Shown here: piece after piece, positions 2,851-55,457 of the stretch
Numbering within the stretch: position 1 is the first letter of the stretch
Layout: each line of letters opens with the position of its first letter
Assembly (NCBI GenBank): GCA_021647705.1
Contig: JAKIUF010000015.1
Span: 1 to 64,000, forward strand
Direction of reading: 5' to 3'
DNA: 64,000 nucleotides
From: Gammaproteobacteria bacterium
GTDB lineage: Bacteria; Pseudomonadota; Gammaproteobacteria; SZUA-152
Notes under the pieces: generated by a model
The model's database searches: none
Seen by the model: the letters and a program-made list of their open reading frames with translations, nothing else
Told to the model about the DNA's origin: nothing
Position numbers and translations under genes: made by a program

Positions 2851-2896
2851 AGTGCTGTTAGTTATGTGCAGCTTAAACAAAAGGAGACGCTGCTCA

Positions 2897-3026
2897 ATGT
2901 CATTAAGTTAACAAAGTCGTAGGTTGGTGGTGAGCTTGCGAACCCCAACATCAGCGACTTTGTTGGGATTCGCAAGCTCACCACCAACCTACAACAAGCA
3001 GAAATTTTGGCTTAACTTAATGACAT
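2897..3026. mobile_element. MITE-like element family A, copy 1
   Basis: About 130 bp, bounded by a 15-bp inverted repeat (ATGTCATTAAGTTAA at the left, its complement at the right). The inside is a long hairpin with arms GTAGGTTGGTGGTGAGCTTG and its complement. No coding capacity. Other copies are at 8741, 21481 and 55198, and a lone end at 49954. This is the best preserved pair of ends. Confidence 0.8.
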
Positions 3027-8740: not shown

Positions 8741-8868
8741 AACATCATTAAGTCCACAAATCCGTAGGTTGGTGGTGAGCTTGCGAACCCCAACATCATT
8801 GGCTTCGTTGGGGTTCGCAAGCTCACCACCAACCTACACCAAACAGGATTTTTATTAACTTCTAACCG
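8741..8868. mobile_element. MITE-like element family A, copy 2 (ends degraded)
   Basis: Keeps the long hairpin with GTAGGTTGGTGGTGAGCTTG arms and an almost perfect complement. The outer inverted ends have decayed to CATCATTAAGT at the left and ATTAACTTCTA at the right. Non-coding. Confidence 0.7.
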
Positions 8869-17250: not shown

Positions 17251-17315
17251 GGTACGGTTCCCTTAATAAAACACTCTCTTGATAAAAAGTCTCTTATAAC
17301 TAATGTCACGCAGGC

Positions 17316-17490
17316 TTCAAATGTGAATTAAGCGCTTAAAACACCTGTTTTAAGAATCATCGGGTATTTAACGCTGAGGTCGCAGAGGCGCTGAGGCGCT
17401 GAGGACGCAAAGAAAAACACTAAAAACTTTGCGTCCTCTGCGTCTTTGCACCCTCTGCGTTTATGACACACCACTTGTCAGTACCACTGA
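17316..17490. repeat. CGCAGAG-rich dispersed repeat, copy 3, inside the sdh operon
   Basis: Head GTGAATTAAGCGCTTAAAAC, then units GAGGTCGCAGAGGCGCTGAG and the return arm CTTTGCGTCCTCTGCGTC. It occupies most of the 376-bp gap between sdhA and sdhB. It can fold on itself and may affect transcript stability between the two genes. Confidence 0.75.
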
Positions 17491-17626
17491 CAACATAACC
17501 TCCCAATACACTGAAACGATTGTCCGAGAGCTTCTGCTATTGCTCAAGTTTCAGTTAGAATGCGAGTTGTAGCATCATGTAAAAACCATCAGTCATTGAT
17601 TCATTATTCCAAGTGCGCAACATCAG

Positions 17627-21480: not shown

Positions 21481-21612
21481 ATGCGCCTAAGTTAACAAAT
21501 TCGTAGGTTGGTGGTGAGCTTGCGAACCCCAACATCAGCGGCCCTGTTGGGGTTCGCAAGCTCACCGCCAACCTACAACAAGCAAGAAGTTTTGGCTTAA
21601 CTTACATAGCAT
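21481..21612. mobile_element. MITE-like element family A, copy 3
   Basis: Arms GTAGGTTGGTGGTGAGCTTG and complement (one mismatch), loop around ATCAGCGGCCCTG, outer ends CTAAGTTAA and TTAACTTA. It lies between ygfZ and the HDOD gene and may separate their transcripts. Confidence 0.75.
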
Positions 21613-22488: not shown

Positions 22489-22558
22489 CAAACCCACACC
22501 AACCACACAGAAAACCATCGCTTTCATTTTGCGCGTTTTATAAAAAACATATTTCCTT

Positions 22559-22800
22559 AAATGTGAAAATTAAGCGCTAAATCACTCTGTAAGCACTTTT
22601 TACTGAAAATACCGTCATTCCGGCAGTTGTTGACCGGAATCCAGAGATTTACACTCTTGGGGAAACCGTTTCAGCACATTGGAAACTTATATTGTGGTGG
22701 TGCGGACAAGTGACGTGTTATAAACGCAGAGATCGCAGAGACGCAAAGAACGCAGAGAAAAACACTAAAAACTTTGCTTTCAGCACTTAATTCACATTTG
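22559..22800. repeat. CGCAGAG-rich repeat, tandem unit 1 (copy 4)
   Basis: Consists of an ATTAAGCGCTAAA head, CACTCTGTAAGCAC, a short hairpin-like GTCATTCCGGCAGTTG stretch, CTCTTGGGGAAACCGTTTCAG, then TTATAAACGCAGAGATCGC. A second unit in the same order starts at 22822. Together they fill the 700-bp gap between the HDOD and cytochrome genes. Confidence 0.7.
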
Positions 22801-22821
22801 AGACCCGCGTAACATCCGTCT

Positions 22822-23110
22822 TTAAATGTCAATTAAGGACAGAAACCACTCTGTAAGCACTCAACATTTTTTACTGAAAACACCGTCATTCCAGCAGTTG
22901 TTGACCGGAATACAGAGATTTACGCTCTTGGGGAAATCGTTTCAGCACATTGGAAGTTTATATTGTAGTGGTGGTGACAAGCGACGTGTTATAAACGCAG
23001 AGACGCAGAGACGCAGAGACGCAGAGAAAAATACTAAAAATCTTGTGCCCTCTGCGTTAAATACCCGGTGTTTTTTTTAAAAATAGTGTTTTTAGCGCAT
23101 CATTCACATT
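22822..23110. repeat. CGCAGAG-rich repeat, tandem unit 2 (copy 5)
   Basis: Same order of blocks as the unit at 22559, with diverged bases and a longer array of GACGCAGA units near 22998-23025. It also carries the distal arm ACTAAAAATCTTGTGCCCTC, which unit 1 lacks. It ends shortly before the cytochrome gene. Confidence 0.7.
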
Positions 23111-23201
23111 TCAAATATGGAGTGAAAATTACTAACCCGCTATATTCTGTGCAGCCTCCAGAAATTCGGGAATTATTTTGAGGCATAAAAAAAATATAAA
23201 T

Positions 23202-29380: not shown

Positions 29381-30348
29381 GAATGCCACTCTCGATGCAC
29401 ATTGCGAAGCCACATAGCAGCACCGGTGCCCAATCCAATAACCACAAATGCAAGCAATAAAAATGCTCCCGCGCCCCCCCTCTCCAGCAAATGTTTACTC
29501 AGAAACATGACGACGACGATGATTCCGGACAAACAGCCTCCGGCAAGCATAAATAGATCAGGTTTTATTTTTTGATACGCGTAATACACAGCCCCCAGCC
29601 AGACGACCCAAACCAGACCAGAAATTGCGCTGCCAGCTTGATGCTCAAAAATGGCGGTCACACATAACCAGGTTATGGGAATACCGCTACCGGTGACCAA
29701 CAGACGGGCTCCCCACCGTTCAGATAGCCAGTGCCATCGAATCGCGAGATACTCCCAGATAATCAGAATGACGGTGTTAAAGGCAAAAGTCAGCCATAAC
29801 ATGTTGGCCTCAGAACCAATCATCAGCCAGAGAGCGCCTCTAAAGGTCTGGTGATATAACACAATGGAAAGATTGATAAGGACAACCCACACGATCCATA
29901 TCGCGGGAAAACGGCTGACGATGGCCCAGGGTAACATCAACAATGCCCAGGTAAAGAACAACTGCCAGGTATCAGCACCGGTTTGGTAAGTCTGTCCGTA
30001 TAAGGCCAATAACACACCTAAAAATACCGTGGCGACGAGGAGTGATACCTTGCCTATGGTCTTATTCTCACCTAGCTTCCAGTAACTACCGACGGCCAAG
30101 ACAATAAGCACCTCCACCATACCGAACTTCGCAAAACGGTCAATATCATCCCAGTTATAGGCAATAAAAAACAACGCCGAAAACGCCAGAGCGAGACCGC
30201 CAAGCCACAACAGGATGGCATCAAGAAATGCCCTCCAGTCATTTGGTACAGGGGTAATTTTTACCGTGGACAGAGCCGCGTCAATTTTATCTGCTGGAAT
30301 TTTTCCATGCTCGATAAGATTAATGATCTGCTTGCGAAGTGTCGTCAT
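29377..30348 (-). CDS. DUF2157 polytopic membrane protein
   Basis: A 323-residue protein with a short cytoplasmic head (TTLRKQIINLIEHGKIPADKI) of the DUF2157 type, followed by about nine hydrophobic helices (AFLDAILLWLGGLALAFSAL first). It is the first gene of the trio with DUF4401 and GDYXXLXY. Upstream, 187 bp separate it from the amidase gene on the same strand. Confidence 0.82.
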   Translation of the reverse strand: MTTLRKQIINLIEHGKIPADKIDAALSTVKITPVPNDWRAFLDAILLWLGGLALAFSALFFIAYNWDDIDRFAKFGMVEVLIVLAVGSYWKLGENKTIGKVSLLVATVFLGVLLALYGQTYQTGADTWQLFFTWALLMLPWAIVSRFPAIWIVWVVLINLSIVLYHQTFRGALWLMIGSEANMLWLTFAFNTVILIIWEYLAIRWHWLSERWGARLLVTGSGIPITWLCVTAIFEHQAGSAISGLVWVVWLGAVYYAYQKIKPDLFMLAGGCLSGIIVVVMFLSKHLLERGGAGAFLLLAFVVIGLGTGAAMWLRNVHREWHS

Positions 30349-30535
30349 GGTTTGATTGACGTATGTTGAATCTCAATTATTATATACCTGCAACAAGATA
30401 CCTTAATCTGACACTAGGTCATTTGCGGCGATAAAGCTTAAGGCATGGTCAGATAGGCGAGGTCAGGTATTTTTTTATGAGAATAAAGCGACCGGGCTTT
30501 ATTCCGCCATTTCAGATAACAGATTCCCCTTTACA

Positions 30536-31345
30536 TCACACCCTTTCCACTATCGCCAGCACTTCCTCTTCAAAGTCCGAAAAATTAACGTGTTTTCCTG
30601 GACATGATTTGGTGGTTTCTGGATCGTGGCGATGGAAGTTGAGTTTTGCTGTGCTAATCCCGGCGTACTTCATCAGAACTGCAGCAGCAAACATACCGTG
30701 GGATCGTGAAGATAAACCTCGTTCGTGAGAAAAATCCGCTGCATTGTCAAAATTACCGAGCATTTCTATCCCATAGCGAGTGGAATTGTAAGAAACAGCG
30801 TGGACACCTCGGATCGACAGCGGGTTGAAGACCCAGATACCGTGATCATCTACAAATAAATGTGGACCGTGACGCCATCCGTTGTCGTTGATATAACCGT
30901 GACGCATGTTGAGCATATGCTGCTCAGTAAACCCATTAGGGCGAATCGAAAGGTTCGGGAAGCCGGTGTGGTGCATAGTGATACCTGTCGGACTCCAGGT
31001 GTAATGCTCATTTACCCGTACCCACTTCACATATTCAATAAACTCTGCCCGGCTGAACCGCCTTCCAACGATTGGAAAGTTGTCGTTCTTCACCAGCCAT
31101 TCTGGTGGTGTAAAATTATCGGGTACAGCGACGTCCAAAAATTCCGCCTGCGGTGCTTCAGTTACCGTGACTGGCTCTACGGTCTCTCCCGTAGCAATTG
31201 CCAAAAGCCTGTCTGCCACCCGCTTTGCATTTTCCTGTTGTTCCTCAACCGTCCAGCGGTTTTCAATAAACCAACGGTTCTTATAGGCGAGTTTTTTGAG
31301 CTCTTCTTTTATCGAATTTTCACGTTCAGATTGACTCTGGCCCAT
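30536..31345 (-). CDS. Amidase_2/PGRP-type N-acetylmuramoyl-L-alanine amidase, endolysin-like
   Basis: A 269-residue zinc amidase predicted to cut the MurNAc-L-Ala bond. Zinc ligands are in ITMHHTGFP (His125 or 126), His240 and Cys248 in HRHDPETTKSCPG, spaced as in T7 lysozyme. GIEMLGNFD supplies the conserved strand. Residues 1-115 are a charged helical head with no signal peptide, so release would need lysis or a secretion system, as for phage endolysins or T6SS effectors. No holin, immunity or secretion genes are adjacent. A degraded copy of its first half is at 33156. Confidence 0.8.
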   Translation of the reverse strand: MGQSQSERENSIKEELKKLAYKNRWFIENRWTVEEQQENAKRVADRLLAIATGETVEPVTVTEAPQAEFLDVAVPDNFTPPEWLVKNDNFPIVGRRFSRAEFIEYVKWVRVNEHYTWSPTGITMHHTGFPNLSIRPNGFTEQHMLNMRHGYINDNGWRHGPHLFVDDHGIWVFNPLSIRGVHAVSYNSTRYGIEMLGNFDNAADFSHERGLSSRSHGMFAAAVLMKYAGISTAKLNFHRHDPETTKSCPGKHVNFSDFEEEVLAIVERV

Positions 31346-31424
31346 ATTGATTACCTTAAGTTGTAGTGTTTACATCTTGGCAAAAGTCAGGGATATCAAA
31401 GGGGCATTGCTTGATATTTATTCC

Positions 31425-31612
31425 AACTAAGAAATAGAAATTAAATAACTCATACAATTGGCGCTCTACTTCAGCCCGCCCTCGCCCGTTCCTCAATCAC
31501 AAAAACTCGGAATAGAGTGACTATTCCTGCACTTTTGTTCAATCAGAACAAACCAATACGAACTCAATCAGAGCGCCACGTATACTAAGTTATTTAATTT
31601 CCACTTCTAAGT
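31425..31612. mobile_element. MITE-like element family B, most complete copy
   Basis: About 188 bp with imperfect inverted ends (GAAATTAAATAACTCATAC at the left; complement of GGAAATTAAATAACTTAG at the right) and GGCGCTCT inner arms. It includes CTATTCCTGCACTTTTGTTC. The right end contains the last codons and stop of the cold-shock gene at 31607. Partial copies are at 14466 and 21371. Confidence 0.7.
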
Positions 31613-31876: not shown

Positions 31877-31986
31877 TTTTCACCTCTAAAACTTATTAGC
31901 CTTTATTTCAATGTTGCAAGTATGCCCAATAGCAGCCACTTACAAATAATTTTTAACTTCAGCATTAATAACACTTGTCAGAAACT

Positions 31987-33427: not shown

Positions 33428-33592
33428 TAAACCGCCCGCTGACCCGCAACGTCGAGCCGTTGCGTACCGTCATGCCCTGCTGCGTCTGCTCGATGGAGAA
33501 CAGGCAAAGCATATGCCCGCTCGCCGAGGGTACAGGATATGATCCACCGCCCCCCATACGCGCAAGGTTTGTTCGGCATCGCTAATAATAAT
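33428..33592 (-). pseudogene. Degraded copy of the alpha-amylase gene (3' end)
   Basis: Matches 45633-45808: CGAGCCGTTGCG, TGCCCTGCTGC, ATGGAGAACAGGCAAAGCAT versus GTGGAGAACAGGCAGCGCAT, and GGTTTGTTCGGCATCG. It has many substitutions and indels. It abuts the amidase relic within 3 bp and keeps the gene order amylase tail then amidase head in the minus direction. The remaining bases to 33747 show no gene. Confidence 0.75.
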
Positions 33593-34717: not shown

Positions 34718-34729
34718 TTTATTCCAATG
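34718..34729 (-). repeat. 12-bp boundary motif CATTGGAATAAA, site 1
   Basis: Exact copy on the minus strand. Identical copies are at 36710, 38189 and 39711. No gene starts immediately after it; the terminator hairpin follows on the minus strand. Confidence 0.6.
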
Positions 34730-36031: not shown

Positions 36032-36108
36032 GAAACTAACGCCTCAATAACCAGCGCAGCTTTTCTGCGTATGGCACCGAAGGCGCGAAGATGATTGATT
36101 TGTTAGGC
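36032..36108 (-). other. Integron attC-like recombination site
   Basis: A 77-nt site on the minus strand: GCCTAAC (R'' box, consensus RYYYAAC) containing the stop codon of the upstream gene, then AAATCAATC, a non-conserved middle, TTATTGAGGC and GTTAGTT (R', one base off GTTRRRY). TCAAT and ATTGA pair as L boxes. The next gene's ATG follows directly. Position between two genes and symmetry are as in integron cassettes. Confidence 0.65.
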
Positions 36109-36709: not shown

Positions 36710-36721
36710 TTTATTCCAATG
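36710..36721 (-). repeat. 12-bp boundary motif CATTGGAATAAA, site 2
   Basis: Exact minus-strand copy. The final A of the motif is the first base of the ATG at 36710-36708. Confidence 0.65.
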
Positions 36722-36889: not shown

Positions 36890-38080
36890 TTATTCTTGGG
36901 GTATAGGTTGTTTTGCTAAAACAGGAAAGTAATAGACCGCGAACACCATAAAGGCAAGCCCCCACATAAGCTGTGAGATAAAAATCCAGGCATTGTAATA
37001 CTGAGTCGCAAAAAGAGGTAACACGACACGAACAACACCACCGACAAGCACCAGCAGGAACACAGGTCCTAATAAATACGGTGGGTTAAAGACATCGCGC
37101 CCAGTGTGGCCAAGCGATATGCGAGCCATCATGCCAATGGTCACCATGCCAATACCACCATAGGCAAAAGCATGTACCGCCAACATGGGATCTGTATTCA
37201 GAAAATAGGCTGAAGCGTTCAAAGCAAACCCAACAATAATCCAACCATAGCCAATATAGAGAACCCATAGCAGGGGTTTTTTCCAAATTCCCCGGGTATG
37301 CCAACCAACCAATCGTACCGTATGAATAACCGCTAACGAGATTGCGGCAACAGCAGCGTACAAAGGCAACGGATAATAAACTTCAGTCACAAGAAACACG
37401 AGCATCAGCACAATGCTCACGAAATTAATCCATAAATAATCCCGAAGTTTGACGGGATGACCAACGCCCTTTTCAATAAAGAATGGAATCACCCTGTGCC
37501 CCATCAGCATGATCAGTGAAATAGTGATGTACAGGCCGGTATAGAGCCCCATGCGAATACCGTTATCCAAAAGATTGAACAGCCCAAGGTAGAACAAAAC
37601 ATTCCCGGCAAAAAGAAGACCCAGCATTGACCAGATACCCATCTGCTTCCATTGTTTCACCTTGGCTATGGGTAACAACACCAGTATACAAACCAGCAGA
37701 TTAAAAAGCAGATCAAAAGCCGCCATAACCAGCAGGGCATTATTAAATGGCAGGTAGGGCATCACCCTCGCCATCCCCCATATCGCAGCAAGTATAAATA
37801 AAGGAAAACCATGAATGGTTTGAATGCCTGTCCAGTTTTTAACAGCCGTTAACAGAAAACCAGTGATAATGGCTATGCTATAACCGTAGATCATTTCATG
37901 GGCATGCCAATGAACACCGGTAAGTCTGGCGTCGGGCAATATTGTTAGATTGTATTGGTAGAACTGTATCCATAGGACAACGGAAATAATCGCGAACATG
38001 CTGCCCAATAAGAAAAATGGCCTGAAGCTCAGATCGAACAATGCGTATCGTGATGTAGCTTGTGGTTCGGTGATTTTCAT
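36890..38080 (-). CDS. nnrS: NnrS family haem-copper membrane protein
   Basis: A 396-residue protein with about twelve transmembrane helices. Family features are the opening SRYALFDLSFRPFFLLG, WHAHEMIYGYSIAIITGFLLTAVKNWTG, MGHRVIPFFIEKG, and HAFAYGGIGMVTIGMMARISLGHTGR. NnrS proteins are linked to nitric oxide resistance and denitrification, protecting against nitrosative stress. No nitrite or NO reductase genes are adjacent here, and it sits within accessory genes, flanked by boundary motif sites 2 and 3, suggesting it arrived as a module. Confidence 0.9.
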   Translation of the reverse strand: MKITEPQATSRYALFDLSFRPFFLLGSMFAIISVVLWIQFYQYNLTILPDARLTGVHWHAHEMIYGYSIAIITGFLLTAVKNWTGIQTIHGFPLFILAAIWGMARVMPYLPFNNALLVMAAFDLLFNLLVCILVLLPIAKVKQWKQMGIWSMLGLLFAGNVLFYLGLFNLLDNGIRMGLYTGLYITISLIMLMGHRVIPFFIEKGVGHPVKLRDYLWINFVSIVLMLVFLVTEVYYPLPLYAAVAAISLAVIHTVRLVGWHTRGIWKKPLLWVLYIGYGWIIVGFALNASAYFLNTDPMLAVHAFAYGGIGMVTIGMMARISLGHTGRDVFNPPYLLGPVFLLVLVGGVVRVVLPLFATQYYNAWIFISQLMWGLAFMVFAVYYFPVLAKQPIPQE

Positions 38081-38188: not shown

Positions 38189-38200
38189 TTTATTCCAATG
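38189..38200 (-). repeat. 12-bp boundary motif CATTGGAATAAA, site 3
   Basis: Exact minus-strand copy 108 bp upstream of the nnrS start. A small hairpin (GGTTC AAA GAACC) lies about 20 bp to its right. Confidence 0.6.
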
Positions 38201-38242: not shown

Positions 38243-39181
38243 TTATAATTTCCTCTCTATTAAGCGTCTTGTAAGGTCTTCGATAATCTCCTTGCTAAGC
38301 GTAAATCCATCGAAGACTTCATAAAGTGGAACAACTACCTGAGCCACATACTCGCTCAAAGCTGACAAGGGTGTTTCAAGAGGTACGTTGACGAGCGCGG
38401 TAAAATCATCCTGGTAGGCCTGTCGTCCTGGAGATATATAACGACCGGGCTGTGCCCAAGATGCCAATTCGCGTCCCTGAAGCTTTGTCCACCGAAATGC
38501 AAATGCAAGATTAGTGGCTTCTGGATCGCATTGCATGGCCTTGGCAAAAGCTATACCCACTGCAATAGCTTCTGCGCACCGGATAACCGGTAGACCAAAA
38601 TCAAGCGTAGACAATGGGGCTGGCGAACTGGAGTTTTCAGAGATATCATCTTCTAAGGCACGATGGAGGTAAAAGCAACCTTTAGGGTCGAGCCTCATAA
38701 AATCTATATGGTTGCTCCAACTTGAGCCGACGCTGGCAATAAGTGCTTCCCAAACCCCCTCGAAGACGCATGGCTTTGCACTTTCCTCAGAGAATCCATG
38801 ACTGTCAAACCAGACCGGCCAACCTGTATATTCTGGATTGCTTGAATCAAGCAAATTTAGGAATTGTCGATTGGCCGAGTGATTTGGCACATCACCTACA
38901 ATCAGTAAAGCCACCTCCCATGATCCATGCACAGGAAGACTTGCGCCCTTTTCTTCAACCACCTTATTGAATCGAGCACAACCATCTTGGGGGTACTGTC
39001 GTAAAAGGCTTTCTGTCGAAGCTTCAGGTTCTGCTCCCTTTGAAATTACAGCTGTAAAATCGTGTAGTAATTCTGATCGAATGCCACTCAAATGACGACG
39101 CATGAAGCGACCAATATCTGCCTCACGATTATCAAAACACACTTCAACCAGATTTGGCCAGTCTTTCCAACCGGGGTCTCT
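38243..39181 (-). pseudogene. Truncated protein joined in frame to an IS relic
   Basis: Codes for about 312 residues from RDPGWKDW to LTRRLIERKL. Text such as GWPVWFDSHGFSEE, FEGVWEALIASVGSSWSNHIDFMRLDP and FGLPVIRCAEAIAVGIAFAKAM resembles the C-terminal part of putative AlbA-like ATP-binding/transcription regulators, recalled without a search. The N-terminal catalytic part is missing: the frame continues into a transposase fragment. Any product would be a chimera. No intact start of its own is visible. Confidence 0.5.
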
Positions 39182-39470
39182 GACCTGTTCCGGGTATAGC
39201 CCTTTCTCGCGACAATACTCGCTCAGCTCAGATTCACTCAAAACAGCTGTTTCAATGACCACGGCCAACTTCGCTTCCGCTGACCAGTGATCGCTGATTT
39301 TTCCACTTCCCGGCACAGGAATTCCTTGTTGTTTGGCTTGATTGCGCCAATTATACAAGGTCCGCCTGACTGATACCTTCCAACTCCGCTATTTCAGGCA
39401 CCGACTGGTTGTGAGGAGGTAACAGTTTCTTTAATACAGCAGCCTTTCGCTCTTCCGAATAACGCGGCAT
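39182..39470 (-). pseudogene. Transposase OrfA-like relic with a frameshift
   Basis: Reads MPRYSEERKAAVLKKLLPPH, then an HTH (PEIAELEGIS), a one-base insertion in GCGGACC, and LYNWRNQAKQQGIPVPG to YCREKGLYPEQV. This is the start of a common IS transposase OrfA. It stops at the joint with the next segment at 39182. No downstream transposase or right end is present. The original gene probably started at ATG 39470. Confidence 0.75.
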
Positions 39471-39499
39471 TTCAAACCCTTTCTCCGCTCCCTGTCTGA

Positions 39500-39691
39500 T
39501 CATTTAAAGATTTCAACTGAGGCGACAACTATCCTGACACAGGGGGATCCAGGCCACCTACCTATCTCCCAATAATGGGCATCTACACTTCTATACTCAA
39601 AGCGTGAAATATTAGAAAATGCTTTAGCAAGATTTATCTCAATAGGAGTTGTACAGCGATCTATTCCTACGCTCGATTCAAAGAATTTCAT
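39500..39691 (-). CDS. Short ORF behind boundary motif 4, possibly not a gene
   Basis: A 63-residue frame opening MKFFESSVGIDRCTTPIEIN. A tiny frame (ATG-GAG-AGA..., product MERIYQK) begins just after the boundary motif and its stop overlaps this ATG by 4 bp (ATGA), which suggests coupled translation. The last codons (VRIVVASVEIFK) may belong to the IS relic's left end. Function unknown. Confidence 0.35.
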   Translation of the reverse strand: MKFFESSVGIDRCTTPIEINLAKAFSNISRFEYRSVDAHYWEIGRWPGSPCVRIVVASVEIFK

Positions 39692-39710: not shown

Positions 39711-39722
39711 TTTATTCCAATG
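39711..39722 (-). repeat. 12-bp boundary motif CATTGGAATAAA, site 4
   Basis: Exact minus-strand copy. It lies about 90 bp after the stop of the NACHT-LRR gene. A short hairpin (TGTCCGC / GCGGACA) is about 20 bp to its right. Confidence 0.65.
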
Positions 39723-39813: not shown

Positions 39814-42800
39814 TCAAGACCATTGACGATGTAGTTTGTTTGCCAACTCCTGTTCACCAGCTACCTCTAACCCACTCAAGTTCGTTCGATTTAAGTTAGG
39901 AAGTCCCATTAGTGGAATGACATCTATCACTCCTGTGAAAGAGATATCAATCGAGGCCAATTTTTTACACTCCAACAAACCTTCTAGATTATTAACTTGT
40001 GTTTTAGCAAGATCAATTTCCACAAGATTTTTGCAGGGAGACAATGGATTTATACTAGAAACCTTCGTTCTAGCTAATTTAAGTGATTCAAGATTTATTG
40101 TAACCGACAGTGGAGATAAATCTTTCACCTCGCTATCTGTTGCATTCAGCGTTCTTAAATTTACCAGTTTGCTTAATGGGCTAATATCATTAATTTTTGT
40201 TCGACTTATATCAAGAAATTGTATATCTGTATTCTTAGATAATGAATCTAATCTGAGGACTGGCGTATTTGCTAACGATAGCTTGGTTAAATTCTTCAGT
40301 GAATTAAGTGGCGAGAGATCTTCAACTTTTGTTCCTGATAAATTAACATATTCTAAGTCTGTAAATTTCGTAATTAAACTTATATCCCGAATGAAACGCC
40401 GGACAAAATCAGGAAAAGGTTTTCCTGATAATAAATAGTCTTGTACTACATGTACCTCGAAAGGGTCTATTGATTGAACCAGTTCTGAAACAACTGAAAG
40501 CCGAGAGTCATATTTATAGCCAAGAAGATAACGATATGCGTCTTTTGTGCCGATCAAACGCAGTGTCCTGACGCTCGCAGCAGTAGAATTCTCATCCATT
40601 TCTGAAGAGTACTTCAAGAGTGAAACAGCATCATTTCCACAATCGGCTAATGCTTCTGCGTCTGACATATTTTGAGGTGGAAATATCGATTCCTGAATTT
40701 CTCTAATTGTTGAATCTATTTCAGGATTTAAATGGAGAGCTACTGCCCTGCAACGTATTGCCAATAACACATAACGCCGCAGGGTTTTATCATCTAGAGC
40801 ATGTCTTATGGCTGCTGGTTGAATTTTATTTTCATTACCTTGCGCCTTTTTAAGTACCTTTGAAACAAACTCGCTAGCAAATGACTTGTGGCGCGTCGCT
40901 ACAGCGAACAGGATAACTGGCTGCCATGTAGGGTCTAAACATCGTTTGAAGAGTAGGCCAATAGAATGGTCATGAACAATACAGTCTGCAGCAAGATAAT
41001 CCTTGAGGGTATTATGCACAAAATCAATTTTTCCAGGTCTATTTTCCCTTAACAATCCACTCCGTTCTATTAATATTCGAGGGATAGTTTCGGTATTATC
41101 TGCTGAATGACCAGGAAAACGACTTAATTGTTGGCCCAAAATATCCTCTGTGCGCTGATAATCTAATACTGACTCTTCATTTAGTACCATATGGTGGGCA
41201 AGATGCTGTATTAGCGCTCGCTTTTGATCATAATGAAAGTTTGAGTATGCGCTTGCTTGAGCTGCTTCATCAATTCCACTTTCTTCGTCCCTTCTATGCA
41301 GCAACATTTCGCATAGGGCTTCACAGAGTGAAGATTGGCTCTGAGGTAATTTTTTTCCACGATCACGGTGTAGAGCACAAATTGCTGCACACAATAGTGG
41401 ATTACTCGCTAATCTCGCTATCTGTGGATTTCCTAACAATGTACTTTTCAATTCGCTCGAAATAGTAGCTAAATCCACGATTTTCCCTTGACGTTTCAGC
41501 TCAGCAGAAACGGCCTCATGCCAACGGTCTATAAAGTGCTCTCTATCAATAGCAGACATAGGATTAATATGTGCCTCTGAGAACCCTTCGGCTGACAGCC
41601 ACTTATCAGAAACAGCGGTAGGACGTGTACTAACGATAAATATATTGTTGGGGAATGTACCAATTAATGCTTTCAATTCTACTTTTATAGTTTCTCGGCG
41701 ACTTTTTGGTACCTCATCAACACCATCTAAGAGTACCAACCCACGACCTTGCCTCAATATAGATGATACCCAGCTTTGCGGGGGTTGCCCAATATGTTTG
41801 GCGATATAAAGTGGGAATTCATCAGGTGTTGGAAGGTGTCCCTCAGAAAAATCACGTAATCGCAACAAAAATGGAATTCTATTTATATGTGGCTCATTCC
41901 CATTTGATTTTTTTTTCATTGTAGAGAATGTCTTAATAGAAGGGATGCTAGATTTTCCTCGAAAGTCTTGTGCAGCCATTATCGCAATCCAACGGAAAAG
42001 CGTGCTTTTACCGCTGCCAGCTTCACCACGGAGGAGTAGCCGGTTACCAATCGTGTGTAAATTCCTGAAAAGTTCATCTGCTATAAAAACATGTGGTGGG
42101 CCTTTCTTATTATTATGTTCTAAGTTTAGTGACACATATCCTACAGAAAGACGATTATGCTTTGACTCCGGTTCAACATTAATTCCAAGCAATTCTAGAT
42201 AATCCAGATTTCTTAGTAGATATTGTCGATAATCTGATTCATATCTCTGGTCAGAATTATTCGCAACAAGCTTACTAGTGTCTATTAGAATTCGATTGAC
42301 TTGCGCGATAGTGTAATCAAGATCGCCCTGTATTCGAGAAAGCCTATTAAGACTTTCTGTCGCTATTCCAACTTCAAAACCAGGTAAACTATCGACAATA
42401 TTTACTAAATACCGAACAGCATCACTCAACCCTAAATTGAATAAATATTTTTCATCCTCTGATAAGCGTGACGTGAAGCTAGGAGAAATATTTTGTAAGT
42501 CTTGCTCAATCTGAGCAGGCTCAAGATTTTTATCAATAAGAAATTCTGTTGAAGCTGCCGCGTATAATGTATCTGAAAGAGCATCGGCTACTCGGGCGAG
42601 AATTTCACTTTTGTTTTTCCTTAGGGTTTTTCCCGCTGATTTTTCTTCACCCCAACCTGCTTCAATATTTTCTAATTGTTTTTCTAAAACCGGTGCTATC
42701 TCTCCGACAACTTTATCACTTATAGACTCAAATAATCTCACTGTTTTTCTTTGCTCATGATAATCAGTAATTTTATTTTTCGCTACATCAAGGAGGCCAC

Positions 42801-42912
42801 TCCCTAATACTTCGCCAGCCACACCAAAATAGGTCTTCAATAAGAGTTTTGCGAGAGGGAAACCTAAAGAATTAGTTAACGATTCTTTAAGATTAAAGTT
42901 GCCTGACTCCAT
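39814..42912 (-). CDS. NACHT NTPase with C-terminal leucine-rich repeats (bacterial NLR)
   Basis: A 1032-residue STAND NTPase. The helical N-terminal domain (1-230) contains an amphipathic/hydrophobic patch (LAKLLLKTYFGVAGEVLG) and resembles NACHT-linked helical domains. The NACHT core has Walker A GEAGSGKST (296-304), Walker B GLVLLDGVDE (391-400) and FIVSTRPTA. A helical linker follows. LRRs occupy about 860-1020 with repeats like LEYVNLSGTKVEDLSPL, IQFLDISRTKINDISPL and LVEIDLAKTQVNNLEGL. This is the domain order of animal and plant NLR immune sensors; bacterial NACHT proteins act in anti-phage defence. It is the last gene of an operon with a recombinase and an AAA/TOPRIM-like protein, 32 bp downstream of the latter. 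Confidence 0.88.
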   Translation of the reverse strand: MESGNFNLKESLTNSLGFPLAKLLLKTYFGVAGEVLGSGLLDVAKNKITDYHEQRKTVRLFESISDKVVGEIAPVLEKQLENIEAGWGEEKSAGKTLRKNKSEILARVADALSDTLYAAASTEFLIDKNLEPAQIEQDLQNISPSFTSRLSEDEKYLFNLGLSDAVRYLVNIVDSLPGFEVGIATESLNRLSRIQGDLDYTIAQVNRILIDTSKLVANNSDQRYESDYRQYLLRNLDYLELLGINVEPESKHNRLSVGYVSLNLEHNNKKGPPHVFIADELFRNLHTIGNRLLLRGEAGSGKSTLFRWIAIMAAQDFRGKSSIPSIKTFSTMKKKSNGNEPHINRIPFLLRLRDFSEGHLPTPDEFPLYIAKHIGQPPQSWVSSILRQGRGLVLLDGVDEVPKSRRETIKVELKALIGTFPNNIFIVSTRPTAVSDKWLSAEGFSEAHINPMSAIDREHFIDRWHEAVSAELKRQGKIVDLATISSELKSTLLGNPQIARLASNPLLCAAICALHRDRGKKLPQSQSSLCEALCEMLLHRRDEESGIDEAAQASAYSNFHYDQKRALIQHLAHHMVLNEESVLDYQRTEDILGQQLSRFPGHSADNTETIPRILIERSGLLRENRPGKIDFVHNTLKDYLAADCIVHDHSIGLLFKRCLDPTWQPVILFAVATRHKSFASEFVSKVLKKAQGNENKIQPAAIRHALDDKTLRRYVLLAIRCRAVALHLNPEIDSTIREIQESIFPPQNMSDAEALADCGNDAVSLLKYSSEMDENSTAASVRTLRLIGTKDAYRYLLGYKYDSRLSVVSELVQSIDPFEVHVVQDYLLSGKPFPDFVRRFIRDISLITKFTDLEYVNLSGTKVEDLSPLNSLKNLTKLSLANTPVLRLDSLSKNTDIQFLDISRTKINDISPLSKLVNLRTLNATDSEVKDLSPLSVTINLESLKLARTKVSSINPLSPCKNLVEIDLAKTQVNNLEGLLECKKLASIDISFTGVIDVIPLMGLPNLNRTNLSGLEVAGEQELANKLHRQWS

Positions 42913-42944
42913 ATCATTAGTCCTTTTATTCGATTTATTTCAAT

Positions 42945-44582
42945 CTAGTGTTCCACAATAGCCGCATCAAACTGTTCAACATCAGTAGATAGTAGGTCTG
43001 ATACAGGGCTTATTATATTACGCAATATTTTTCGATCTTTTTCTGAGTCACTCAACATCTTTCTCACAGCCTGCTCATAATTACTCTGTGACTGATACCC
43101 CAGTGACTGGGATACACATTCTAGTGCAGGCGTCTCTCTAACCGGGTATCTTGATATAAGTGAGCCAACATCCTCTTCACCTATAAACTCTTCGATTAAT
43201 TTGGCTTCTTTAGCAAGTATTTCATCTGCTGATATTGATATATTCGTCTTACCGTTGAGAATCTCTTTCCAGTTCGGCGCATCATATAATAATTTATCCT
43301 TAATCCGCCTTTCTACTAATCGAGATATCATACGATCCTTGTGTTCAACGATTGAGGAAAGTACGCCTGAAATTATTTTAGAAAAGGCTTCAGATGAATT
43401 AATGCCGTTTATATCAGACACTCTCAAGATCATAATTTCAATAACAGCCGGATGATAACAAAGAGATTCAACAGAGTATTCCTTCAAGGCAATAACGCCG
43501 TTGGATTCCAGTCTTTTGCAGTCTTCATCAGACCTATTGTCTCTGTCTATTATCCCGTACGCAGAAACCCAATGATTTTCCTCGGATGATCTTAATCCCT
43601 TTACTATTCGTTCTACAACAATACAGCTGCCAACGGGTTTGACCGACACATTAGGATATAATATTTGATAAATCTGAATATCCAAACTAGATGGATCGCC
43701 TTCAATAAATAATATACTTCGGCGAGAGCCGAGCAGTGCGATGGCTATCTCATTATCTAATTCTTCAACAGATTCAATGTAGTCGGTCTCCCATTGTTGT
43801 GGGTCATGAGAATATGAACGAACCAATAAACAGGATGCATTAAGCTGATCCATAGGAAGTGATACATCGTGCGTAAAAATAACAAATGCGCAATCTTCCC
43901 TGTATGCTAGTAACGTACTTAGAAGTGGTGAGACAATTGAGCGGTGTAAATGACGCTCAGGCTCATCTAACAAAATTAAAGTATCACTAGGAGCTGTCAA
44001 CACATTTGCGATAATCAAAAGCGCATTTCTTTCGCCATCTGATAACTCTGCAATACTATATCCAGGAAGATCACCGCGCTCGGCAATAAGTTTACTGCCT
44101 TCATCTACCCTAATTTTAATATCCAAGTTTGATATCTTAAGGATATCATTCATATTTGACATAGGAGACTGTATTGAAGCGAGGTATTTTACTAGATTCA
44201 TTTCACCAGACCTGGCAGCTTCAGCAATTTTCCTCGCGTCGATATTTTCAACATCAACCAAATCAAATATGGTTACTTGGGCACGTTGAGCCGCATGATC
44301 ATCTTTCCATCTAGAATCTGTCTGCTGGTCTCTGTTATTTATGTTTTGTTGTGTTTGTTCTCTAGCGGTAGGAGTTATATCGATTGTATTCGAACTTAAC
44401 CATACTTGCCTATGAGCGGTTATGCGTCTTACTCGATTAGTATTTTGTGTGGCGAATTTATGCATTAGTGTAGATTTTCCAGTGCCATTTTCTCCAACAA
44501 GAAACATAATGTGCCCTGACTCAATTGATTGCTCTATGTTTTGATCATCGAACCCAGAAAAATTTAATCGAAATACACTCAT
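42945..44582 (-). CDS. AAA ATPase (ABC-type) fused to a TOPRIM/DUF4435-like domain
   Basis: A 545-residue protein. Walker A GENGTGKST at 30-38, signature ELSDGER at 179-185, Walker B LILLDEP at 202-208 and HD switch THD at 237-239 make an SMC/ABC-like ATPase. Residues from about 285 hold SRRSILFIEGD with Glu294 and AYGIIDRDNRS with Asp346 and Asp348, the acidic pattern of TOPRIM/DUF4435 domains. This architecture is like OLD-family nucleases and the AriA-AriB pair of the PARIS defence system, here in one chain. It follows the recombinase by 22 bp and precedes the NLR by 32 bp. The defence role is inferred. Confidence 0.78.
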   Translation of the reverse strand: MSVFRLNFSGFDDQNIEQSIESGHIMFLVGENGTGKSTLMHKFATQNTNRVRRITAHRQVWLSSNTIDITPTAREQTQQNINNRDQQTDSRWKDDHAAQRAQVTIFDLVDVENIDARKIAEAARSGEMNLVKYLASIQSPMSNMNDILKISNLDIKIRVDEGSKLIAERGDLPGYSIAELSDGERNALLIIANVLTAPSDTLILLDEPERHLHRSIVSPLLSTLLAYREDCAFVIFTHDVSLPMDQLNASCLLVRSYSHDPQQWETDYIESVEELDNEIAIALLGSRRSILFIEGDPSSLDIQIYQILYPNVSVKPVGSCIVVERIVKGLRSSEENHWVSAYGIIDRDNRSDEDCKRLESNGVIALKEYSVESLCYHPAVIEIMILRVSDINGINSSEAFSKIISGVLSSIVEHKDRMISRLVERRIKDKLLYDAPNWKEILNGKTNISISADEILAKEAKLIEEFIGEEDVGSLISRYPVRETPALECVSQSLGYQSQSNYEQAVRKMLSDSEKDRKILRNIISPVSDLLSTDVEQFDAAIVEH

Positions 44583-44604
44583 GTTTATTCCTTGCTAAAT
44601 ATAT

Positions 44605-45384
44605 CTAAGATTTTACGTTTAAAGTGTTGCCATTATTGAAATTTGGAAGATTGACGCCTTTCCATAAATTTTTATAGGCCGCATCAATACGATCCATGTC
44701 TGGATCGACATACTCTAAAGTCATCTCTTCATCTTCATGGCCTAATATTTTCTGGATCAATTTAAGGTCATAACCCTTACGGTCCATCTTTGTTGCTATG
44801 CTTCTTCGTCCTGAGTGCGAACTGCCACCTTGAACGCCTGCGCTTTTTATAATGTCTCTAACCGTATTTTCGAGTGAGGCACAAACCATCGTTTCTTTGA
44901 TGCCACCTATAGTCTTATATTTTTTAGTATTAAATGCGAACTTTCGCCAAACTCCTTTCTTTGAAAGGAATAACGGGCTGCCACCATCCAACAAACCACC
45001 ATATAAACCATCTTCTGATAACATTGCACCTTCAGCTACACGTTGTTGTTGCCATAGACCTAAAGCTTCTCTTTGTTGTTTGACCTTGATATAGGCTGGC
45101 CTTGGTTTGCCCATTTTGGTGTATGTTCCAGGAATAATGAAAGCCGTCTTAAGTTCACCAGAAGGGTAATACGCATCTGAGACTTTCAACTGTGCAACTT
45201 CATTAATACGCAATCCAGTGCCAAATAGCATCCATAAGATGGATACGTTACGACGGCCCAGCTCACCCCTGGAGGCCACAAACAGGATGTGGCTCAATTG
45301 ACTAGGGGTGTTCACTATCTGTGCTTTGCCAGAGCCAGGCTCGTATTCACCCAAAAGTCTTTTAATTGGTCTTCGATTAGCCAT
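44605..45384 (-). CDS. Short tyrosine recombinase/integrase
   Basis: A 259-residue protein (ATG 45384). The catalytic set is Arg59 (GTGLRINEVAQL), His190 and Arg193 (SHSGRRS), His216 (LGHEDEEMTLEY) and nucleophile Tyr225. Only about 25 residues precede the catalytic domain, so the arm-binding and most of the core-binding domain are absent, as in FimB/FimE-type inversion enzymes. It should act on sites with short inverted repeats. An inverted pair of ATTCCAATG/CATTGGAAT lies directly upstream (45405-45473), and the same core occurs at four other module borders. It is the first gene of the operon with the AAA and NLR genes. Confidence 0.82.
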   Translation of the reverse strand: MANRRPIKRLLGEYEPGSGKAQIVNTPSQLSHILFVASRGELGRRNVSILWMLFGTGLRINEVAQLKVSDAYYPSGELKTAFIIPGTYTKMGKPRPAYIKVKQQREALGLWQQQRVAEGAMLSEDGLYGGLLDGGSPLFLSKKGVWRKFAFNTKKYKTIGGIKETMVCASLENTVRDIIKSAGVQGGSSHSGRRSIATKMDRKGYDLKLIQKILGHEDEEMTLEYVDPDMDRIDAAYKNLWKGVNLPNFNNGNTLNVKS

Positions 45385-45404
45385 TTTCTTCTCAAAATTG
45401 CCAA

Positions 45405-45473
45405 ATTCCAATGTTGCCCAGATGCGGCCTGAATGTCCATGCGTTACGAGGGTTTATGCGGGTTCATTGGAAT
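45405..45473. other. Inverted-repeat site upstream of the recombinase, possible att site
   Basis: ATTCCAATG at 45405-45413 and CATTGGAAT at 45465-45473 face each other around 51 bp. They are the inner 9 bases of the 12-bp boundary motif. The left copy lies 21 bp upstream of the recombinase start, a usual place for a core att or regulatory site. Confidence 0.5.
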
Positions 45474-45618
45474 ATTAGATACATGACAACAGTGATTGTC
45501 GGAAAGTATTTTTTGTATCACTTATTGTACTGCGCATGTGTAGTGCCTAATTAGTGAAACAAGTGAGAAAACACACACGCCCCACTACACTGCCAGTAAC
45601 TGGAAGAATACCCATGGT

Positions 45619-47571
45619 TTAGTGATACACCACAAACCCCGCTGGCGGCACACTGATCCGCAGCGCCGAGCCGTTGCGCGCCGACACTGTCACCGTCGTG
45701 CCCTGCTGCACCGGGTCGGTGGAGAACAGGCAGCGCATCTGCCCACCCGCCGGGTGCAGGGCATTATCCACTGTCACCCATACATGCAGGGTTTGTTCGG
45801 CATCGGTATTAATCGCACACAGGTATTCCTGATCTGCAAAGATGCGCGACCAGGCCACTACCCAGCGCAATTCCCCGCCCAAGGGCTGCGGGTAGTGAAA
45901 ATCCCCTGCTTCACCGCTGGCGGAGATTTCGCGCAGATACTGACGCCCGCGACGCAGGGCGATGTGTTGCCGTCGCAGGGTGCAGACTTTTTGTACAAAG
46001 CGGTAAATTTCGTGTGCTTCTGTGAAGAAGTGCCGTCCTGTGCTTTGTAGTGAGCCAAACGGTCCGCCGAACATACATTCGCGCAGAAAGACATCACTAT
46101 AGGCATCGTCATCACCACGACGCTGATCGGCACCATTGAAGCCTTGCTCCGTGCCGTAATAGAGACAGGGGATTCCGGCGCTGGTGAGGTTGAGGCCTAG
46201 GGCACAACGCAGATAACGATAACCATCGTCGCTGCCGCTGAAACGAAATTTGCGTTTCACGCCTACCTGGTCGTGGTCATCAAATAGGGTGACCACATGT
46301 TTGCCGTACCATTGGTGGCTGTGTTTTTGGTCGAGCAGGCTGTTTTTGAACAGGTCGAAGTAACCTTCCTGGGCTTCGGTACGTGGGTCGCCGGGGCTGC
46401 TCTGCCCTTTGGCGAGGGATTCCAGTTTGTGAGGGATGTCGTTAATACCCAGTGCTGCATCGATGCCGGTGGTGTTGACGATGTGCACTGCGTGCTGGCG
46501 ACCCCCTGTTACTTCACCGATGAGGTAGAAATTCTCTTTGCCCAGGGACTGGGCGTATTCATGGATGATGTTGGCGAAGATCCGCACGGCACCCGGTTCC
46601 ATATGTTTGACGGTGTCGATACGGTAGCCGTCGATGTCGGCGTAAGCGATCCAGAACTTGTGGACTTCGGCGAGGTGCAGCAGCGCCGGGGCTACGCCAT
46701 ATTCGCGGATGCGGCGTTGAAGATCCCAGTCCAGTGCGGGGTCGCGTAGGGAACGGCCATGGTTAATGTCCTTGAGTGACAGGAAATCACCGTCCAGATA
46801 GTTCGGGGAGGCATCCCAGTTACTGATTTCGCCGCGCCGGGTCCAGGTTTCCGGCCTCTGAAGTTCGGCTGGCCATACAGCACCGTCCGGCCAGGCACTG
46901 TCATCCACGGGCCCCAAGGGCAGGCTGCCCGCATCGTCGATCCTGCTGCGAAATCCTTCCACTGGCCACTGGTTGCCCTGGTGATAGAAATAACGCTGGT
47001 TGTTGTCGTAGGCGAAAACATTACCGGCATGATTCAGGATAATGTCCAGGATGACGCGGATACCTGCCGCGTGTGCTGCGGCAACGAAATCCCGCAGTTC
47101 GTCGCGGGTGCCGAAATGCGGATCTACGTCGAGAAAGTTCTGCACTCCGTAGCCGTGGTAATCCTGGCTGCCCGTGACCTGTTTAAAGACCGGACTGAGC
47201 CATATGACACTAATGCCCAGGCGTTGCAGATACCCTAGCTTGTCCCGGAGCCCGGCCAGGGTTCCGCCGCACCAGGACTTGCCAGCTTCGAACCAGGGTT
47301 GGCGGTCTGCGCCCCCGGCGTCAGTCTGCAATTGAAACAGCGGCGTAGTACGTTGCCCTGTTGGCCCTTCCACTGGCACATCGGCCCCGTCAGCAAAACC
47401 GCCGTGCTCTCTGCCGTCGGAGAAACGATCCACAAACAGGAAATACAATACCTCATCTTCCCAGGCGGCTGGTGAGGGAAAGTAGTCTCGCCCGGCGCTG
47501 ATGGTGGACCAGTCAATGTCCTTGAGGCTGCGCTCAATGTGCCGTTGAGTGTCGGCTGGATTGTTGGGCAT
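45619..47571 (-). CDS. GH13 alpha-amylase family glycosidase
   Basis: A 650-residue cytoplasmic (no signal peptide) GH13 enzyme. Region markers: YHGYGVQNFLDVDPHFG, DIILNHAG, nucleophile Asp319 in DGYRIDTVKH, acid/base Glu353 in LIGEVTGG and third acid Asp434 in FDDHD. A C-terminal beta domain completes it. It should cleave or transfer alpha-glucans; exact specificity is unclear. The ATG at 47571 has AGGGAGG 8 bases upstream. Copies of parts of this gene lie at 33428 and 47829. Its GC-richer base composition contrasts with the accessory genes to its left. Confidence 0.85.
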   Translation of the reverse strand: MPNNPADTQRHIERSLKDIDWSTISAGRDYFPSPAAWEDEVLYFLFVDRFSDGREHGGFADGADVPVEGPTGQRTTPLFQLQTDAGGADRQPWFEAGKSWCGGTLAGLRDKLGYLQRLGISVIWLSPVFKQVTGSQDYHGYGVQNFLDVDPHFGTRDELRDFVAAAHAAGIRVILDIILNHAGNVFAYDNNQRYFYHQGNQWPVEGFRSRIDDAGSLPLGPVDDSAWPDGAVWPAELQRPETWTRRGEISNWDASPNYLDGDFLSLKDINHGRSLRDPALDWDLQRRIREYGVAPALLHLAEVHKFWIAYADIDGYRIDTVKHMEPGAVRIFANIIHEYAQSLGKENFYLIGEVTGGRQHAVHIVNTTGIDAALGINDIPHKLESLAKGQSSPGDPRTEAQEGYFDLFKNSLLDQKHSHQWYGKHVVTLFDDHDQVGVKRKFRFSGSDDGYRYLRCALGLNLTSAGIPCLYYGTEQGFNGADQRRGDDDAYSDVFLRECMFGGPFGSLQSTGRHFFTEAHEIYRFVQKVCTLRRQHIALRRGRQYLREISASGEAGDFHYPQPLGGELRWVVAWSRIFADQEYLCAINTDAEQTLHVWVTVDNALHPAGGQMRCLFSTDPVQQGTTVTVSARNGSALRISVPPAGFVVYH

Positions 47572-47828
47572 GTGCAAAACCTCCCTGGCGGGTTTGTTCT
47601 TTCATTTCCTGATTCCCGGAATTTAATTTATAACACCTGTGCAATACAAAAGCCCGATTTTGATTCCTCAAATATTCAGCTGGAAATCTTTCCTGAAGGC
47701 ATCAGGATTCTGCTTCCAATCATAGCGAGGAGTGTCTACTCTTCCACCTCTTCTTGATTTTTAGAGACAAGTGAAAATTGTCGATTTAATGCAACGTGGC
47801 TTTCCATTCGCATTCTCTACATGTGTGT

Positions 47829-49969: not shown

Positions 49970-50168
49970 ATGTGAATCAGGAATAGATGTTCCCTCCCCT
50001 CGGACAAGCGCCCCAGTACGGGAAGTTATTCTGTAGTGGCACTAACAAGTGACGGGTTATAAACGCAGAGGTCGCAGAGAAAAACATCAAAAACTTTGCG
50101 TCTTTGCGTCTTTGCGACCTTTGCGTTAAATACCCGATGTTAAAAAAGAGTGTTTTTAGCGCTTGTTC
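49970..50168. repeat. CGCAGAG-rich dispersed repeat, copy 6
   Basis: Contains the GTGACGGGTTATAAACGCAGA stretch, then AAAAACTTTGCGTCTTTGCG and the TTAAATACCCGATG tail. It fills the argC-RND gap together with the family A end. Confidence 0.7.
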
Positions 50169-55097: not shown

Positions 55098-55197
55098 CCT
55101 GACGGCCCTTTCCCGGATATTCTAAATATGCTCGTATTTTGGCAGGTATACGGAAGTCATGAATCACCCGGCAGGGTGATTTAAGGGGGTGAATCAC

Positions 55198-55338
55198 AAT
55201 GTTATTAAGTTAAGCCAAACTTCCGGCTTGTTGTAGGTTGGCGGTGAGCTTGCGAACCCCAACGGAATCGACGATGTTGGGGTTCGCAAGCTCACCACCA
55301 ACCTACGGTACGCCGTTTTTTGTTAACTTAATGACATT
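55198..55338. mobile_element. MITE-like element family A, copy 4
   Basis: 16-bp inverted ends AATGTTATTAAGTTAA and TTAACTTAATGACATT (one mismatch). Hairpin arms GTAGGTTGGCGGTGAGCTTG and complement. Inverted in orientation relative to copy 1, as seen from the flanking TTAAGCCAAACTTC sequence. It fills the gap between the LuxR and SRPBCC genes. Confidence 0.78.
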
Positions 55339-55457
55339 GGGGTGAATTAGGAGAACGGGACAGGAAAATTCCCGGGTAAAATTGCCTTGCAGCTAAAATA
55401 GAATAAAGTGAAAACGGGAATGAGTTTCCGGTGTGGTCACATACTGTCGCTGCAAAC

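Follow-up and report, generated by a model that had tools for sequence, protein, structure and literature searches.

The textbook example of a system that captures single genes and stores them is the integron. Other tyrosine recombinases with short sites, among them the Rci shufflon recombinase and FimB/FimE, the latter likewise short proteins, invert the DNA that lies between inverted sites. PARIS, one of the families met below, is defined by anti-phage toxicity, exerted via tRNA cleavage upon sensing of a trigger. In the pdif modules of Acinetobacter plasmids, gene modules are bounded by short tyrosine-recombinase sites served by XerCD (PMC12907356, PMC9455709).

Here, we describe a locus in the window, the whole 64,000-nucleotide stretch of DNA that was analysed, in which a short tyrosine recombinase gene is followed by two defence-type genes and a series of further genes on the same strand. 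We consider it likely that the three genes form the head of an integron-like cassette array run by a short, non-IntI tyrosine recombinase, with the PARIS and NACHT-LRR genes as cargo. The features, in the direction of the genes, are as follows.

45405..45476, minus strand: putative leader site, attI-like, inverted pair ATTCCAATGAACCC ... CAACATTGGAATTTGG; same pair in 8 of 8 recombinase loci
44605..45384, minus strand: short tyrosine recombinase, 259 aa, catalytic domain only (Pfam PF00589)
44584..44594, minus strand: variant cassette site CAAGGAATAAA, immediately before the AriAB start; identified by resemblance
42945..44582, minus strand: fused PARIS protein AriAB, ABC ATPase plus DUF4435 TOPRIM (PADLOC, Pfam)
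42934..42945, minus strand: variant cassette site GATTGAAATAAA, overlapping the AriAB stop codon; resemblance to the site motif
39814..42912, minus strand: NNH1-NACHT-LRR protein, 1032 aa, bacterial NLR-like (Pfam)
39711..39722, minus strand: cassette site CATTGGAATAAA, exact copy
38243..39358, minus strand: cassette gene, 371 aa, phrog_38563 over residues 65-371
38189..38200, minus strand: cassette site CATTGGAATAAA, exact copy
36890..38080, minus strand: cassette gene, NnrS protein (Pfam PF05940, 1.1e-96)
36710..36721, minus strand: cassette site CATTGGAATAAA, exact copy, overlapping the next start codon
36399..36710, minus strand: cassette gene, small predicted lipoprotein, 103 aa
34949..36031, minus strand: GIY-YIG-like protein in the next interval (E 0.00047, just under the Pfam cut-off)
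34718..34729, minus strand: cassette site CATTGGAATAAA, last exact copy
31902..31913, minus strand: variant site CATTGAAATAAA, possible distal array end
31417..31428, minus strand: variant site AGTTGGAATAAA, possible distal array end

Putative leader site and head genes

An earlier note on this DNA had described the three head genes as a same-strand trio spaced by 22 and 32 bp; the open reading frames of the window are so arranged, and profile searches bore out its gene-by-gene description. The first gene, put forward as a short single-domain tyrosine recombinase, matches Phage_integrase (PF00589) at 4.6e-18 and carries the complete R-K-H-R-H-Y catalytic set (R59, K90, H190, R193, H216 and Y225, conserved in alignments). 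The catalytic domain is preceded by approximately 35 residues, and a Pfam profile search returned no match to a core-binding domain family. Because homologues align from there, translation most likely begins at the ATG at 45384 rather than at the TTG at 45411. AlphaFold models for the tyrosine recombinase fold were too poor for use, with mean pLDDT values of 35 and 47. The second gene, described as an ABC-type ATPase with a TOPRIM/DUF4435-like tail, matches the fused AriAB of PADLOC (1.7e-69, residues 17-521), Pfam AAA_21 (4.5e-12) and DUF4435 (28.1 bits, just over the cut-off of 27). Its ATPase motifs are the Walker A sequence GENGTGKST and LILLDEPERH, its DUF4435 TOPRIM motifs LFIEG and IDRDN, and the joining of an ABC ATPase to DUF4435/TOPRIM by which PARIS is recognised is present. 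The third gene, described as NLR-shaped with a helical head, NACHT and LRR, matches NNH1 (2.6e-18), NACHT (1e-16) and LRR_4 (5e-15), and so has the helical N-terminal domain, NACHT NTPase and C-terminal sensor repeats that mark the bacterial NACHT defence proteins. These PADLOC and Pfam matches also support the placement of both proteins in defence families.

Directly upstream of the recombinase start, TTCCAA and TTGGAA lie 61 bp apart. The stretch flagged earlier at 45405-45473 is a perfect 9-bp inverted repeat, ATTCCAATG...CATTGGAAT, and ATTCCAATG occurs six times in the window against 1.25 expected (at most 4 copies in 100 shuffles). An inverted TTCCAA/TTGGAA pair at 60-61 bp directly upstream of the recombinase is found at every one of the eight loci tabulated for the window's clade; a clear pair is absent at a Microbulbifer locus, whose recombinase is damaged, and the exact pair was not found in viral contigs. 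The two ends of the leader, which form an inverted repeat, are able to pair with each other, with folding z-scores there of -0.1 to -4.5, and the leader shares its core with the array sites described below. At no locus read does a cassette lie between the leader and the recombinase.

Direct-repeat sites in the window and in a second genome

Sites in the window were located by a repeat search and a motif scan. Successive gene blocks are separated by single copies of CATTGGAATAAA on the gene strand, with variants following the recombinase and AriAB genes. The exact motif occurs four times on the gene strand and not at all on the opposite strand of the window, and it is absent from 300 Markov-simulated sequences with the window's dinucleotide make-up. 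The whole 4.4-Mb genome holds six exact copies, four of them within the array of the window; judged by eye, one of the other two apparently falls within a coding sequence and the other is intergenic.

Several further repeats were noted in the window. The start of the 371-aa cassette gene (39182-39548) is approximately 69% identical to IS3-family (ISAs20-like) sequences of Aeromonas plasmids, and a DNA search of plasmids for conserved cassettes, conducted with the window, matched mainly this stretch. The 3' end of an amylase-like gene (45619-47577) is copied on the far side of the array (33439-33589 and 45653-45813, 75% identical). Near-palindromic repeats of ~120-140 bp occur on both strands (2895-3026, 8745-8861, 21488-21604 and 55197-55339), possibly a family of a small non-autonomous element, and a second dispersed family of short repeats is present in both orientations (298-447, 2730-2828, 17303-17528, 22546-23122 and 49999-50164). 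Long direct-repeat ends of a single large element were considered and rejected, the repeat search having given the short motif alone.

A genome scan with three recombinases identified a recombinase 70% identical to that of the window in a second gammaproteobacterial metagenome-assembled genome, G389 (locus L020). All nine copies of CATTGGAATAAA in this 4.3-Mb genome lie behind the recombinase, on one contig and one strand, and a reversed-pattern control gave none; over 41.7 kb, the broader motif (C/T)ATTGGAATAAA occurs 13 times forward and 0 times reverse, and the listed array genes share a direction with a single exception. The array contains a duplicated 820-bp unit (29902-30721 and 40693-41499, 89% identical), the similarity of which begins at TGGAATAAA and ends just past the next site, and a duplicated 244-bp unit (4756-4999 and 39159-39402, 91% identical), which extends from TATTG(A/G)AATAA to a degenerate site. 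The variant TTGAAATAA, comparable to the GATTGAAATAAA of the window, serves as a duplication boundary. A third repeat, non-coding, 157 bp long and 73% identical, does not end at sites. The duplicated cassettes begin and end at the sites. One suggestion of the earlier note, that the recombinase moves units, is supported. The cargo includes Ppl, DUF4917/PDC-S21 and a short Argonaute with its REase-TIR partner, together with a DpnII/MboI-type nuclease, a weak HEPN match and a PAAR-like protein; defence genes recur as array cargo while the particular genes differ, as cassettes would predict.

The earlier note had also envisaged a dedicated three-gene system, or control of expression by switching of an upstream site. 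The single strand, the 22- and 32-bp spacings and the perfect 9-bp inverted repeat directly upstream fit a single defence operon in which the recombinase, PARIS-like and NLR proteins work jointly, or a recombinase that inverts an upstream expression switch. We regard this as very unlikely: the trio of recombinase, AriAB and NACHT-LRR was not met again in the genomes and plasmids searched, and it is on this account that a dedicated trio is rejected. An AriAB 64% identical to that of the window, from the same genus, has neither the recombinase nor the NACHT partner, a 43% identical AriAB beside Gabija-like genes is likewise without both, and relatives of the recombinase head arrays with different cargo and unrelated neighbours. 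Downstream, copies of the motif lie between the genes as direct repeats, an arrangement that fits cassette exchange better than inversion. Scanning for the array motif beside the AriAB genes of G002 and G216 revealed no site flanking the gene. At L011 (5346-11435), a fused AriAB gene immediately follows two genes that, going by sequence, resemble a Gabija pair.

Distribution of the recombinase and its relatives

Across 144 genomes (the window's own and 143 relatives), AYATTGGAATAAA clusters on one strand in the window's genome only, the 143 relatives without the recombinase showing no same-strand site clusters. The recombinase itself was found nowhere else in a search of 96 genomes of relatives and, among 369 sampled genomes of the class, in the window's genome only; in another family it was present in 4 of 347 genomes, two of which were already known. 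Among the genomes searched, the sites cluster solely where the short recombinase occurs.

Further arrays carry motifs of their own. The Microbulbifer plasmid pTHAF38_a, the recombinase of which is 57-60% identical but split by a frameshift (L008, 11824-12590), has 16 copies of GGAATATG forward and 0 reverse in its array, most of them at an ORF start. Three of its units are duplicated and reordered (c1-c2-c3 versus c2'-X-c3'-c1'), with all six ends at the motif; a DNA search detected no conserved cassettes of this array elsewhere on plasmids. The G540 array contains TTGGAAAA (9 forward, 0 reverse) and the viral contig L053 contains TTGGAATA (5 forward, 0 reverse); G698 and L022 hold one or two sites only, and L009 shows little. 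Many plasmids (at least 151 records at E 1e-15) and some phage contigs encode more distant recombinases, ~31-38% identical. Downstream of several lie long runs of small genes on the same strand, at the junctions of which GGAAAA-type words overlap the ribosome-binding sequence.

In the Microbulbifer plasmid and in the distant clade, the motif is placed right at start codons and has the look of a Shine-Dalgarno sequence. It could accordingly be read as a regulatory or RNA-processing element (promoter, operator or ribosome-binding context) of an ordinary island, the duplications having some other cause. This reading is unlikely. The distance from site to start codon is variable in the window and in G389, extending to hundreds of bp, and the same core is present in the leader pair before the recombinase; since duplicated cassettes begin and end at the site, a regulatory motif fails to explain the boundaries of the duplications.

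Two Paraburkholderia plasmids have the recombinase and the first cassette in common, the similarity running from the leader arm TTTTCCGA to the array site ACGGAAAA, with divergent sequence outside; apart from these plasmids, no cassettes common to the arrays of different genomes were found. Between two other closely related Paraburkholderia plasmids, L077 and L078, the difference is an indel that does not coincide with sites. In a permutation analysis, a locus's own leader arm scored its own array above permuted arms (P 0.00015, 17 loci), and much more weakly within the distant clade alone (P 0.04); given the selection of arms by eye and the relatedness of the loci, we treat this as supporting evidence only.

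A model for the cassette array emerges in which the recombinase gene stands behind the leader site with its inverted TTCCAA/TTGGAA pair, and genes of the same direction are strung after it with single short sites between them. The recombinase most likely binds the TTGGAA core and recombines the sites, whereupon cassettes would be inserted, lost, duplicated and rearranged; on this model the NACHT-LRR gene and the fused PARIS gene would each be a cargo cassette of its own, expected to work against phage independently of the other. The array of sites, its bias to one strand, its association with this recombinase and the boundaries of duplicated cassettes from site to site are observed directly, whereas we infer the recombination by the short recombinase, the order of these steps, the point of insertion and the defence function. 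By the usual standard of tyrosine recombinases, a ~12-bp core is a single half-site, and its size counts against the model, as do the L077/L078 indel, the 157-bp G389 repeat that does not end at sites and the frameshift in the Microbulbifer recombinase. With one short core alone, the reaction might proceed between half-sites, or the leader might contribute the partner site.

More broadly, it is somewhat probable that short, catalytic-domain-only tyrosine recombinases build arrays of genes, defence genes included, independently of integrons at sites of ~8-13 bp, the core being clade-specific and tending to match the locus's own leader arm. Relatives of this kind reside on chromosomes and in at least 151 plasmid records. 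If true, integrons would be joined by a second cassette system, set apart by its recombinase and by sites that are much smaller, and some of the plasmid arrays of small unknown genes would be explained. Such a system would also furnish a marker for hidden defence genes and possibly a compact recombination tool, and would make directly testable the long-standing question of how defence islands gather and reshuffle genes.

Comparison with integrons and other known systems

No description of such a system was found in the open-access literature searched; preprints and most subscription papers lay outside this coverage, and the novelty of the cassette system is therefore provisional. Both cargo proteins match PARIS (AriA/AriB) and bacterial NACHT proteins by domain; they differ in appearing here as separate cassettes. 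The array sites are direct repeats, in contrast to the inverted sites between which Rci and FimB/FimE invert DNA, and an inversion switch was rejected as the main reading on this ground. Short tyrosine-recombinase sites bound gene modules both here and in the pdif modules; relative to the latter, no dif-like two-half-site was recognised here, a dedicated recombinase heads the array, and the sites share one orientation (PMC12907356, PMC9455709).

Integron-like matches accompany the short recombinase: all six recombinase genomes searched contain IntI-like matches, five of them over the cut-off, and IntI may for this reason contribute to recombination at the sites. Three integron integrase matches in the window's genome exceed the cut-off, all of them on contigs other than that of the window, and on the G389 array contig (C33, L038-L040) one such integrase lies ~11 kb beyond the array's last site. 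Beside the GIY-YIG-like gene of the window, at 36036-36108, a stretch that by eye resembles attC (TAACGCC...GTTAGGC) has inner complementary arms. These observations could point to an ordinary integron array or fragment on which IntI acts in trans, the short recombinase being an unrelated neighbour, a reading that we hold to be most unlikely. The sites do not have the attC ends GTTRRRY/RYYYAAC, no complementary upstream arm is present at the cassette junctions of the window, and 14 G389 sites fold no better than controls; moreover, among the genomes searched, site clusters accompany the short recombinase only.

The preferred reading, a cassette array run by the short recombinase, nevertheless shares much with integrons: a tyrosine recombinase gene beside a putative leader site, a long one-directional array of mostly single-gene cassettes, duplication and reordering of cassettes, and defence genes among the cargo. 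It differs in that the window recombinase is short, scoring 36.5 bits against TIGR02249 (IntI), below the cut-off of 265, that its gene points into the array, and that the sites are single ~12-bp motifs rather than attC-like elements with paired ends and folding. As a candidate counterpart of the leader attachment site of integrons, the present loci have a conserved inverted pair at 60-61 bp (eight loci), but the cassettes lie behind the recombinase gene.
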